Origin: Pseudomonadota bacterium
GTDB lineage: Bacteria; Desulfobacterota; Syntrophorhabdia; Syntrophorhabdales; Syntrophorhabdaceae
Length of the DNA: 59,923 bases
Assembly (NCBI GenBank): GCA_026388255.1
Contig: JAPLKC010000088.1
Location: forward strand, 1-59,923
Direction: 5' to 3'
Shown in pieces: positions 19,831 through 28,300 of the stretch. Each line of letters opens with the position of its first letter. Within the stretch, counting starts at the first letter, position 1. The notes under the pieces were generated by a model. The model saw nothing but the letters and a program-made list of their open reading frames with translations. It ran no database searches and was not told where the DNA came from. The position numbers were made by a program, and so were the translations under genes.

Positions 19831-22107
19831 TTGTTTATAATAGCCGTATTATCATTCATATGTGGTATATATTGTGAAGTTTCATACGCTTTACGCCTGA
19901 ATATAATATCTATTTTATTTTTTATATCCATTTGTTTTATTCCTGTCATCATCGATAAAAAAACCAGATTTGCATCAATACTTATTTTTCTCTGTTTTTT
20001 TCTCACAGGTGTAATAAGAACCGGGATTGTAACTGCAGAAAAAGCATCTCTTGATCCCGGTCTCACAGAAGAAAATGAAATTTATGAAGGTTATATAACA
20101 GATTCTTCAAAACATATCAAAACGGTCAAACTTATAACACCTTCAAGTCTAAACAATATCGGCGTGGCTTTTATAACAGACCTGGATTTAAACATAGGCG
20201 ACAAAATTCGCTTTTATGGCAAAATAAGGGAACTGTCTCCTGCATTTAACAACCCCTCTACTACATCATGGAAATGGCTAAAAAAATTGGAAGGGATCAA
20301 CTATGAGATGAAAGGCACGGTGATTACCGTTCTGCCGGGGAGAAATTTTATACAAACATTGAGGAATAAACTCAAAAAAACCATTGAGGATTCCGGCGCG
20401 AAGCAACAGGATGTGATAAAGGCGCTTACCATAGGCGATAAAACATCACTTAATGAAAATACTATAAACCTTTTTCTTAAAACAGGGACTTCGCATATCC
20501 TCGCCATATCAGGCTTACACGTCGGCATAATAACAGGTTTTTTCTTCTTCATACTTTGTTGGTTACTGGGAAGATTCCGCACACTGAAGCTATCCGGTAG
20601 ACATACAAAATATGCATCACTTATGACAATCCCATTCCCCTTTATATTTATGATAATTTCCGGTTCAAGTGTATCAACAATCAGGGCAACCATTATGATA
20701 ACAGTCTTCATGCTTTCCCTCTTTTTTGAGAAGCAGAGAGAGATTACAAACACTATTGCCTTGAGCGCCCTCATCATTCTTCTAATATACCCCCACTCTC
20801 TGTTTATGCCCTCTTTTCAATTGTCTTTTATGAGTGTTCTTTTTATCGTGATAATCATGGGAAAATTGTATCCTTATATAAAACTCAAAAATACATACAT
20901 CAAATGGCTTTCAACATCAGCTTTAACAACAGTGGCTGCAACCATCGGAACATTGCCCATCGTTATATATCATTTCTACGGTATTAATCCTTTCTGTATG
21001 ATCCATAACATAATTTCAATTCCTGTTATGTGCATGGTTTCTATCCCTGTCAGTTTTTCAGGTATGATATTGCCTTATGGCTGGTATTTACTACGTCTTG
21101 CAGGAGAGCTTTTAAACCTGAACATCGCTGCATTAAGTTACCTCGATATAGGATATATATTCCCAATTATAAGACCGAACCTTTTTGAAATGCTGTTATT
21201 CTATGCACTACTTCTTTGCATAATTTTTTTTAAGAAAAAGCTCGTCCTGAGTCTCTTAATTATTATTATAATTCCCCTAACAATAGTCCAGATCTCAATT
21301 GTTTGCAAAGATAGGTTCAATAATAACATTTCTCTGAATTTCATAGATGTCGGGATAGGAGAAGCTATCCTCGTGGAAGCGCCTAAGGGCATCAGGATGC
21401 TTATTGACGCCGGAGGTGATTTCAGGGGTAACTTTGATACAGGCAGGGCTATCGTAACACCAATCCTTCTGTCAAGAAAGATTCTCACATTAGATTATGT
21501 AATCAACACCCATCCGCATAGCGATCATGCTGGCGGGATTCCGTACATTTTAAATACCTTTAAGGTAAAAACATTCGTTACAGGAGGGTATTATTCAAAC
21601 GATTCAGCATTTATGGAAATCCACAAAATTGTAAAAGATAAAAAAATAAATTTTCAGTTGTGGAAACAGGGCAATAAAATCAGTATTAATAATGATACAC
21701 AGATACTTGTTATGAACCCTCAGAAGGATTTTCAGGGCGATGATTTGAACAATTCATCGCTTGTCCTGAAATTTATATATAAAAACACCTCTTTTCTTCT
21801 TACAGGAGATATCGGATCAGAGGTTGAGGAAAAACTGATATTATCGGGCATGCCCCTTGCGTCAAAGATCATGAAAATACCCCATCACGGGAGCAAGCAT
21901 TCAAGCAGCCCCCCATTCCTTTTTGCAGTCAAACCGGACATAGCCATATTAAGCGTAGGGAGCGGGATAAAAGGACTACCGTCAGAAGAAGCTATTGAGA
22001 GGTATAAAATGCTCTCTATACCCGTCTTGAGAACTGATAAAAATGGATTTATTCAAATAAGTTCTGACGGGGACAGGATTACCGGTATCAAGTCATACCG
22101 GCAATAA
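19831..22107 (+). CDS. comEC: ComEC/Rec2 DNA-uptake channel protein
   Basis: The 758-residue protein has an N-terminal soluble OB-like region, a competence membrane domain with about eight helices containing GTSHILAISGLHVGIITG and SGSSVSTIRATIMI, and a C-terminal metallo-beta-lactamase domain with NTHPHSDHAGGIPYI near residue 559 and IPHHGSKHSS. ComEC moves single-stranded DNA across the inner membrane. The predicted start is TTG 19831 with AAAGG at long range. No comEA or pilus gene is nearby, as is common outside Firmicutes. Confidence 0.9.
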   Translation: MFIIAVLSFICGIYCEVSYALRLNIISILFFISICFIPVIIDKKTRFASILIFLCFFLTGVIRTGIVTAEKASLDPGLTEENEIYEGYITDSSKHIKTVKLITPSSLNNIGVAFITDLDLNIGDKIRFYGKIRELSPAFNNPSTTSWKWLKKLEGINYEMKGTVITVLPGRNFIQTLRNKLKKTIEDSGAKQQDVIKALTIGDKTSLNENTINLFLKTGTSHILAISGLHVGIITGFFFFILCWLLGRFRTLKLSGRHTKYASLMTIPFPFIFMIISGSSVSTIRATIMITVFMLSLFFEKQREITNTIALSALIILLIYPHSLFMPSFQLSFMSVLFIVIIMGKLYPYIKLKNTYIKWLSTSALTTVAATIGTLPIVIYHFYGINPFCMIHNIISIPVMCMVSIPVSFSGMILPYGWYLLRLAGELLNLNIAALSYLDIGYIFPIIRPNLFEMLLFYALLLCIIFFKKKLVLSLLIIIIIPLTIVQISIVCKDRFNNNISLNFIDVGIGEAILVEAPKGIRMLIDAGGDFRGNFDTGRAIVTPILLSRKILTLDYVINTHPHSDHAGGIPYILNTFKVKTFVTGGYYSNDSAFMEIHKIVKDKKINFQLWKQGNKISINNDTQILVMNPQKDFQGDDLNNSSLVLKFIYKNTSFLLTGDIGSEVEEKLILSGMPLASKIMKIPHHGSKHSSSPPFLFAVKPDIAILSVGSGIKGLPSEEAIERYKMLSIPVLRTDKNGFIQISSDGDRITGIKSYRQ

Positions 22108-22111
22108 TGGG

Positions 22112-22140
22112 TTGTTAGACGTTCGGATATCGGCTATAAT
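22112..22140 (+). promoter_or_regulatory. Sigma-70 promoter of the RHH-acetolactate decarboxylase gene
   Basis: TTGTTA (22112-22117), a 17-bp spacer and perfect TATAAT (22135-22140) lie 45 bp before the ATG, just after the comEC stop. GATATC, a 6-bp palindrome, lies inside the spacer and could be part of an operator, though this is speculative. Confidence 0.6.
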
Positions 22141-22185
22141 GTATTTCAAGGCAAATATCTACAGTAAAAAAAGGGGGGTGTAACA

Positions 22186-23034
22186 ATGTCCGGCAATCAA
22201 TACCTTTCAAGACTTGAGCTTCATTTGTCTGATGAACTCCTTATAAAGTTAAAAAATGCAACTGAACGCACAGGTTGTTCAGAAGCAGAGCTTGTCGACC
22301 GGGCGCTTCGTAGATTCTTCAATGATAAACAGGCCGGTATCTCCGTCTATCTTTCTGCACCAATCAATGCTCTTGTAGAAGGTTTTTATGTAGAGAACAC
22401 AACAATAGCCGATATAAAAAGACACGGCGATTTTGGTCTGGGAACCTTCAATTATCTGGACGGGGAAATGGTTTTGCTTGACGGCATTGTCTACCAGATC
22501 AGATCTGACGGATATGTTTATAACATCGGGGACAATGAGCAATCACCTTTTGCCTGTGTGACCTTTTTTAATCCTGATACATTTGACGATATCAGCGGCA
22601 GTATCGATTCAACAGATTTTTATAGCTTCCTTAACAATCTCATACCTTCAGAGAATATGCTTTACGCTATTCGTATAGACGGTATCTTCAACCACGTAAG
22701 AACAAGGGCTGTTCCAAAATCCCAAAATTACAGGCCTCTTGTGGAAGCAACAAAAAATCAGCCTGTTTTTGATTTCCACGATGTTGAGGGTTCTTTGGCA
22801 GGCTTCTATACACCGCGCTTTATGGAATCTCTAAATGCCCCCGGCTATCACATGCACTTCCTCACAGAAGACCGCCGGCATGGAGGACATTTAATTGAAT
22901 GCTCATTAAAAAAGGCACGCATAGGCATTCAACATGTACCCAAATTGGAAGTAGGGTTGCCCATTACACTTGATTATCTTACTGCTGATCTGACGCGGGA
23001 TATCGGTAAGGATTTAGATAAAGCAGAGAGATAA
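22186..23034 (+). CDS. budA: Alpha-acetolactate decarboxylase with N-terminal ribbon-helix-helix domain
   Basis: Residues about 53-275 match acetolactate decarboxylase, which turns 2-acetolactate into acetoin. The zinc-site pattern HxH-x10-H is intact (H222, H224, H235, within GYHMHFLTEDRRHGGH), E94 lies in DGEMVLLDG, and arginines 172/174 are in the expected place. Residues about 6-48 form an extra domain typical of CopG-like ribbon-helix-helix DNA binders: a strand SRLELHLSD and two helices through SEAELVDRALRRFF. A GGGGGG-containing ribosome site precedes the ATG. No acetolactate synthase is in the window. The fusion hints at autoregulation or oligomerisation. Confidence 0.85.
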   Translation: MSGNQYLSRLELHLSDELLIKLKNATERTGCSEAELVDRALRRFFNDKQAGISVYLSAPINALVEGFYVENTTIADIKRHGDFGLGTFNYLDGEMVLLDGIVYQIRSDGYVYNIGDNEQSPFACVTFFNPDTFDDISGSIDSTDFYSFLNNLIPSENMLYAIRIDGIFNHVRTRAVPKSQNYRPLVEATKNQPVFDFHDVEGSLAGFYTPRFMESLNAPGYHMHFLTEDRRHGGHLIECSLKKARIGIQHVPKLEVGLPITLDYLTADLTRDIGKDLDKAER

Positions 23035-23058
23035 AAAAATCCATAAAGGAGAAATTAT

Positions 23059-23436
23059 TTATTCGACACTTCCGTACAAGGGAAAATGCATGCGTATCTT
23101 TTCTTCAATGTCGTTTATTATGATTTGAGCAAGGTCTAAGGGCATTTGCGCCTTCTGCCAGCCTTGTGGTCCGTACTCCAGCCTTTCAATATCTATCATA
23201 AAAAAGTTAGCTATTCTCGCAGGTCTCCATGTAAGCATTGCCTTTATTGTTTCCAGGACTGCATCTTCTACTTCTATTCCCCCTTTTTCATATCCCCATT
23301 GCGCAAGTTGAACATAATAAAGTGATGCAGGGTCCGGTTTTATACCTGTTTCGCCAAGCATTTCCTTTGCCTTTTCATTAACGGGCATACCGTTCAACGT
23401 GTTAATATCTATTAATAGTCTTTCCTGATCTTCCAT
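23059..23436 (-). CDS. Hypothetical protein (125 aa) downstream of a hybrid histidine kinase
   Basis: The chosen ATG 23436 has AAAGG 5 nt upstream; a GTG two codons earlier is also possible. The product is soluble and acidic, with no signal peptide. It starts MEDQERLLIDINTLNGMPVN and has a Trp/Tyr-rich centre (YYVQLAQWGYEKGG). I recognise no family. The start overlaps the stop of the histidine kinase gene, so the two are probably made together and the protein may be an accessory to that signalling pathway. Confidence 0.6.
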   Translation of the reverse strand: MEDQERLLIDINTLNGMPVNEKAKEMLGETGIKPDPASLYYVQLAQWGYEKGGIEVEDAVLETIKAMLTWRPARIANFFMIDIERLEYGPQGWQKAQMPLDLAQIIINDIEEKIRMHFPLYGSVE

Positions 23437-26970: not shown

Positions 26971-26973
26971 TTG

Positions 26974-28300
26974 ATGAAACAGAAAAAGTCCGTAAGGAAA
27001 AAGGAAATGAATCTCCCGAAGCATCTTGAACATATCAACCGTTATGCAGCAGGTATCGACATTGTTTCCAGGAGCCACTTCGTAGCTGTTCCCGAGGGAA
27101 CCGATAATAAGCTTGTCCGCGAATTTTCAACCTTCACCGGAGATCTTGAAAAACTGGCTGAATGGTTGATCTCCTGCGGCGTTACCACAGTTGCAATGGA
27201 ATCCACCGGTGTGTACTGGATACCGGTCTTTGAGATTCTTGAGAGTCACGGACTTGAGGTCAAATTGGTTAACGCCCGTCATGTCAAGAATGTTCCCGGC
27301 AGAAAAAGCGATGTACCGGATTGCCAGTGGCTTCAGCAACTGCATACCTACGGATTGCTCCATGGGGCTTTCCGTCCCGCAGATGAGGTCTGCACACTTC
27401 GTGCCTATGTACGTCAAAGAAGTACGCTGTTACGCAGCGCTGCATCGTATATACAACGAATGCAGAAGGCATTGACCCAGATGAATCTGCAACTCCACAA
27501 TGTGGTGACAGACATTACCGGCACAACCGGCATGCGGATCATCAAGGCCATTCTCAATGGTGAACGTAACCCTGACACTCTTGCGTCCATGCGCTATCCT
27601 CGATGCAAGAATAGTATCGTAACGATAGCCCGTTCCCTGAAAGGCAACTACCGTACTGAACATCTCTTCAGTTTACAACAAGCATTTGAACTATATGAGG
27701 TTTACCAGACGAAGATAGCCGATTGCGATCAACAAATACTGGCCCAACTGAAAAGCTTTGATGATTCCTCAAACGATGCACCCACCGTTAAAGTGGAAGA
27801 TGCACTGATACGTATGTCAGGGGTTGACCTGACGAGCATCAACGGCATTGATACAACTACGGCGCTCAAGATACTTGCCGAGATCGGCACTGATATGAGC
27901 CGCTGGAAATCACCGAAGCACTTTGCCTCATGGCTTGGTCTCTCTCCCGGTGCTAAAATCAGCGGCGGCAAGGTCTTAAGCAGCGCCACCAAGCCGTTTG
28001 CCAATAAAGCTGCTGCAGCGTTGCGCATGGCTGCTTTTACCTTGTTTAATTCAAAGAGTGCGCTCGGTGCATATTTAGACGACAACGGGCACGAATGGGT
28101 GCCCCCAAGGCAATAACCGCTACTGCCCATAAACTGGCTCGTCTTATACCATGCTTACACACGGAACTTCCTATGTTGATGCCGGTCAGGAATATTATGA
28201 AAAACGCTATCGGTCCCGGGTTATACAAAATCTGAAACGGAAAGCTCAGGAATTGGGGTTTGAACTGGTAACAGTACAAAAGGCAAATGTTGTTTTATGA
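26974..28300 (+). pseudogene. IS110-family transposase, C-terminus broken by two frameshifts
   Basis: The first frame gives a protein to TAA 28116. It has the RuvC-like DEDD domain (AAGIDIVSRSHF, VAMESTGVYW, RKSDVPDCQW) and the transposase_20 domain with INGIDTTTALKIL and the probable catalytic serine in GAKISGGKV. After GAYL near 28077 the expected continuation, RRQRARMGAPKAITATAHKL, is in the second frame. After RLI near 28149 it moves to the third, MLTHGTSYVDAGQEYYEKRY, ending at TGA 28300. This fits loss of one base and then of one or four bases. AGAGG precedes ATG 26974. Confidence 0.85.

Follow-up and report, generated by a model that had tools for sequence, protein, structure and literature searches.

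The question raised by this locus is why an acetolactate decarboxylase (ALDC) should carry a DNA-binding fold at its N terminus. The DNA analysed here (hereafter the window) is a stretch of 59,923 nucleotides, positions 1 to 59,923 of contig JAPLKC010000088.1 (assembly GCA_026388255.1) from a member of the Syntrophorhabdaceae, and it contains on its forward strand an open reading frame, exact at its start and end (22186-23034), that encodes a protein of 282 residues. A preliminary description of the sequence had read this product as a ribbon-helix-helix (RHH) unit of about 50 residues followed by a complete ALDC, and had offered either a bifunctional enzyme-repressor or an RHH module used for dimerisation as its role.

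The catalytic domain was considered first. A profile search matched residues 54-270 to PF03306 (E 6.3e-76), and TIGR01252 was matched over residues 54-280 (model positions 3-231/232) with 239.3 bits against a cut-off of 180.65. The zinc ligands H222, H224 and H235 were all present and invariant, so that the earlier reading of this part of the protein was borne out. Residues E94, R174 and E281, whose roles we take to be those of their counterparts in the Bacillus brevis ALDC, were also present; the resulting ERHHHE pattern was found in all sampled typical ALDCs, and R174 and E281 aligned with the Arg and Glu of solved ALDCs. The best sequence and fold matches in the PDB were ALDCs, those of B. 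subtilis and K. pneumoniae being closest, with some 37-39% identity over the fold alignment, and a full-length AF2 model built from 13 sequences was of moderate confidence (mean pLDDT 72). Judged by its sequence, the domain is complete and its active site intact, and the protein is predicted to be a cytoplasmic enzyme that converts acetolactate to acetoin. It has the catalytic domain, the zinc histidines, the catalytic Arg and Glu and the fold in common with typical ALDCs (BudA/AlsD/AldB; PF03306, TIGR01252); solved and typical ALDCs, however, begin with a signal peptide or a short helix in place of the RHH domain. Note that the ALDC fold search also returned PPC/DUF296-type proteins, several of them annotated as putative DNA-binding proteins (3hwu, 2dt4, 2h6l), a fold link that is weak but long-range.

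The profile check of the two domains was positive for ALDC, while for RHH it was positive in three of the homologues, with the window sequence by itself falling under the cut-offs. Residues 1-56 gave values of 0.011 for RHH_3 and 0.027 for RHH_1, and the single N-terminal sequence scored 14.9 bits where the cut-off is 20.5. Among 16 homologous N termini, 10 matched RHH_1 (best 9.3e-8), and the cut-off was exceeded by the homologues L016 (32.2 bits), L035 (24.5) and L069 (22.7). A profile of the 16 N termini matched the antitoxin EndoAI (7e-6), CopG (1e-3), StnY and VapB26 in the PDB, and PutA weakly. When modelled alone by AF2, the domain formed an extended segment followed by two RHH helices (residues 16-29 and 33-51), and its top structural matches were almost only RHH structures, namely the PutA RHH, CopG, Arc, NikR and ParD, with Z up to 6.6; the Foldseek E-values were weak because of the small size of the domain. 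The E. coli PutA52 structure superposed on the model over 44 residues with an rmsd of 1.1, and the core residues L14, L22, G30, A40 and L41 were conserved in the alignment. The N-terminal domain therefore has the fold and core of CopG, MazE-EndoAI and Arc, in line with the CopG-type unit first proposed; no stand-alone paralogue of it was found in the same genome. The features of the locus are collected in Table 1.

Table 1. Features assigned at the RHH-ALDC locus, with positions in the window.
Feature	Position	Strand	Evidence
Sigma-70-type promoter TTGTTA-17-TATAAT, just after a comEC-like gene	22112..22140	+	Scan; conservation in G020
RHH domain, residues 1-52	22186..22341	+	Homologues over the Pfam RHH_1 cut-off; PDB profile matches; AF2 and structural matches
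Predicted RHH beta-strand, residues 9-14 (RLELHL), outward face R9-E11-H13	22210..22227	+	RHH_1 alignment
Two RHH helices, residues 16-29 and 33-50	22231..22335	+	AF2 models; alignment
ALDC domain, residues 54-281	22345..23028	+	PF03306; TIGR01252; PDB sequence and fold matches; invariant residues
Scar of deleted alsS, RBS-like AAAGGAG retained	23035..23074	+	DNA alignment with G020

The outward residues of the strand are the DNA-reading surface of RHH proteins. The strand faces of 12 distinct sequences of the window protein's clade were therefore compared with those of RHH_1 domains found across the same order (61 distinct sequences), related sequences being counted as independent. The middle position was Glu or Asp in 10 of the 12 clade sequences and in none of the 61 background domains (kinship ignored), and the third was hydrophobic in 8/12 against 5/61 (kinship again ignored). 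Face positions 9 and 13 were variable in the clade, while L14, R28, A40, L41 and R42 were invariant. In the structural study of AmrZ, the middle strand position of RHH proteins is described as generally a neutral hydrophilic residue (PMC3325190). The R-E-H face of the window protein thus departs from the neutral or basic face expected of a DNA-reading RHH, and differs in this from CopG, MazE-EndoAI and Arc, which act on their own as DNA binders or antitoxins and whose strand faces are neutral or basic. A basic face, whose absence the preliminary description had named as grounds against its reading, was largely missing, with E11 at the middle and acidity there across the clade, although R9 and H13 are still in place and some DNA contact may persist. 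Taken together, these patterns point to a domain in which the pairing fold is preserved and the DNA surface is degraded, and the acidic middle residue favours a dimerising role over that of an autogenous repressor.

The reading that we favour, with a probability of roughly 0.6, is that the window protein is an active enzyme whose RHH domain pairs two chains and does not read a specific DNA operator. The domain would act as a clamp that holds two ALDC chains together, or as a bridge from dimer to tetramer. A precedent is found in PutA, whose RHH domain, when fused to monomeric PutA, converted it to a dimer (PMC5293562). Of the two roles first offered for the extension, dimerisation is accordingly the better supported, the enzyme-repressor being weakened by the R9-E11-H13 face, by the variability of positions 9 and 13 and by the overlap with pcnB described below. 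Other points also count against a clamp. Typical ALDCs are already described as dimers, which gives no evident reason for an extra one; and the intergenic promoter block is kept between the window and its sister species, as an operator would be, although the promoter alone suffices as a reason for this.

The strongest of the alternatives, which we nevertheless regard as doubtful, is a PutA-like enzyme-repressor, in which an RHH dimer would bind the gene's own promoter (22108-22185) and acetolactate or acetoin bound at the ALDC domain would alter its affinity. The architecture is that of trifunctional PutA (RHH + PRODH + P5CDH), a proven autogenous repressor (PMC5293562) that likewise joins an N-terminal RHH of about 50 residues to a metabolic enzyme, and it is on PutA52 that the modelled domain superposes. 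The enzyme part of PutA is, however, unrelated to ALDC, and autoregulation of the window gene would be hypothetical. In addition, the PutA strand face has Lys9, which matters for DNA binding, where the window face has Glu11 and His13. Canonical or basic faces do occur in other RHH-ALDC lineages (S/R in L196, N/S in L194 and L195, R/H in L067-069), and for L067-069 a PutA-like reading may hold. Also in favour of this alternative, no LysR-type activator adjoins the window gene, unlike the situation at enterobacterial budA-alsS loci. Against it stands the acidic middle residue in the window's own clade.

The upstream region bears on the same alternative. The gene had been credited with its own strong promoter, and a promoter was indeed present whose -35 element, -10 element and spacing were conserved in the same-genus genome G020, the sister species; promoter-like sites were, however, no more numerous in the scan than in shuffled sequences. 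Conservation of this block would suit an operator. The sole inverted repeat, a 7-bp repeat at 22082-22101 upstream of the promoter, was rejected as an operator since the sister species lacks it, and no conserved inverted repeat was found at the promoter when the window and G020 were compared. In genus g4 most gene copies have their ATG inside the 3' end of pcnB, the gene for poly(A) polymerase, or shortly beyond it, and therefore most g4 copies lack the intergenic space for an operator. An Rfam search gave no match. Elsewhere in the window, the open reading frame 26971-28116 reads by eye as an IS110-family transposase.

The downstream side of the gene was informative as to its metabolic setting. 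A gene for the catabolic acetolactate synthase, alsS, lay directly downstream in G020, G024, G009 and G045, which belong to two families, and its products scored 716-728 bits on TIGR02418 (cut-off 551); the budA-alsS gene order of typical ALDC loci is thus also found among the window's relatives. When the window was aligned with G020, DNA identity was 82% on both sides of a point at which 11 nt in the window replace 1725 nt containing alsS. The last 36 codons of alsS were left in L035, and L019 carried a fused fragment of both genes. The alignments indicate that alsS has been cleanly deleted in the window lineage, that the loss is recent and the adjacency ancestral, and that alsS has been lost repeatedly with the RHH-ALDC retained in most cases. 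The earlier observation that no acetolactate synthase stands beside the gene is therefore true of the window, as a derived state. A biosynthetic-type synthase (IlvB) scored over its cut-off on another contig of the same genome. The ancestral unit of the group would have been an RHH-ALDC/AlsS operon leading from pyruvate to acetoin; since alsS is gone, the acetolactate would now come from IlvB, and the window enzyme would act as an overflow valve for the synthesis of branched-chain amino acids. This overflow role, like the catalytic activity, the oligomeric role of the RHH and its lack of DNA binding, is what we infer for the window protein.

The gene order also invites a third explanation, which we consider improbable, in which the RHH serves to attach the decarboxylase to a partner, AlsS or some other protein, so that the unstable acetolactate is handed over. 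The four genomes with adjoining alsS would suit such a role, but many alsS-adjacent ALDCs have no RHH, and the domain is kept in lineages that lack alsS, the window included. We rejected the view that the RHH serves only for docking to AlsS, because the RHH outlives alsS.

The fusion was read in 26 genomes, 18 of them from the window's group (16 genomes of its family, G045 from another family of the same order, and one further contig, L035) and the remainder from two other lineages; the fusions outside the group were found in G419, G361, G442, G458 and G425, and in G190, G259 and G300. The nearest named relative was a Syntrophus sp. MAG at 77% identity, which would make an origin of the window in the Syntrophales probable. 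Relatives from the Chloroflexota, and several from elsewhere, had neither an RHH nor a signal peptide, and in most genus g4 genomes there was also another ALDC, which lacked the RHH and had a signal-peptide-like N terminus. On the catalytic-domain tree, the RHH had to be gained or lost 3-4 times, and strongly supported branches forced at least 2 in one tree and at least 3 in another, indicating more than one fusion, or a fusion plus losses. L067-069 were placed elsewhere in the ALDC tree, among proteins that mostly bear a signal peptide, and appear to have been fused independently. Plasmid ALDCs that matched from residue 7 onward were rejected as further fusions, their N termini being ordinary and not RHH. 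Two further observations were made on N termini. The Chloroflexota ALDCs without a signal peptide (L037-L054) share a conserved, strongly basic tail, MERTTxRRxRKRK, within their first 15 residues. A separately arisen RHH-ALDC fusion, basic on its strand face, is found at L130:2818-7996 (G190), where it lies some 10 nt downstream of the genes for a paired RND pump and membrane-fusion protein.

In close pairs, dN/dS was mostly 0.04-0.4 for the RHH part, counted where dS was measurable and with the saturated distant lineages left out, and 0.06-0.16 for the catalytic domain. These values indicate that the RHH is maintained, under purifying selection that is looser than that on the catalytic domain, and the fusion is, on comparative grounds, real and conserved. 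It is barely credible that the extension is a relic evolving neutrally, or that it was misannotated and the true start lies farther downstream: the weak scores of the window's own RHH would fit, but the reading frame, the core residues and purifying selection are kept in the 18 genomes of the group. No description of an RHH-fused ALDC was found in the literature searched, and within that literature the fusion is apparently new.

A reversed pattern was found in a second clade. The RHH-bearing proteins L058, L060, L194, L195 and L196, from five genomes, together with L189, which has no RHH, have Trp at the position of R174 and end before E281, with the zinc ligands kept in all six. The middle face residues of the five RHH domains, in the same order, are T, K, N, N and S, and so neutral or basic. 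These proteins are ALDCs by Pfam, and are probably not decarboxylases; they would instead be catalytically dead sensors of the acetolactate type. An intact ALDC without an RHH, 65-67% identical to the window protein, is also present in G442 and G458, and in both genomes a pyruvate kinase gene directly follows the RHH-bearing gene. A perfect 18-bp palindrome, AAGATAATATATTATCTT, precedes the RHH-bearing gene in these two genomes (L194:902-919; L195, reverse strand, 1007-1024), where it touches a TTGACA element of the promoter. No further copies with up to two mismatches were found in the G442 or G458 genomes, none lay near their RHH-free enzyme genes, and G361 and G425 had no copy at all. The palindrome is a lead only, because it is a single independent observation and overlaps the coding end of the upstream gene. 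It is tentatively suggested, as a possibility somewhat short of an even chance, that the RHH-ALDC family moved between enzyme and regulator, and that the members of this second clade are one-component sensors whose ligand is acetolactate or a compound resembling it. No description of such a clade was found in the literature searched.

To our knowledge, RHH-fused enzyme-repressors are known mainly from PutA. The RHH-ALDC proteins are a second case of a metabolic enzyme with an RHH domain, apparently fused more than once. They offer a natural comparison, in which one branch would keep catalysis and lose the DNA face and the other the reverse, and this contrast makes both the transition from enzyme to metabolite sensor and the direct sensing of acetolactate by bacteria testable. 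Database annotation would also need correcting for the clade with Trp in place of R174, whose members would otherwise be labelled as active ALDCs.
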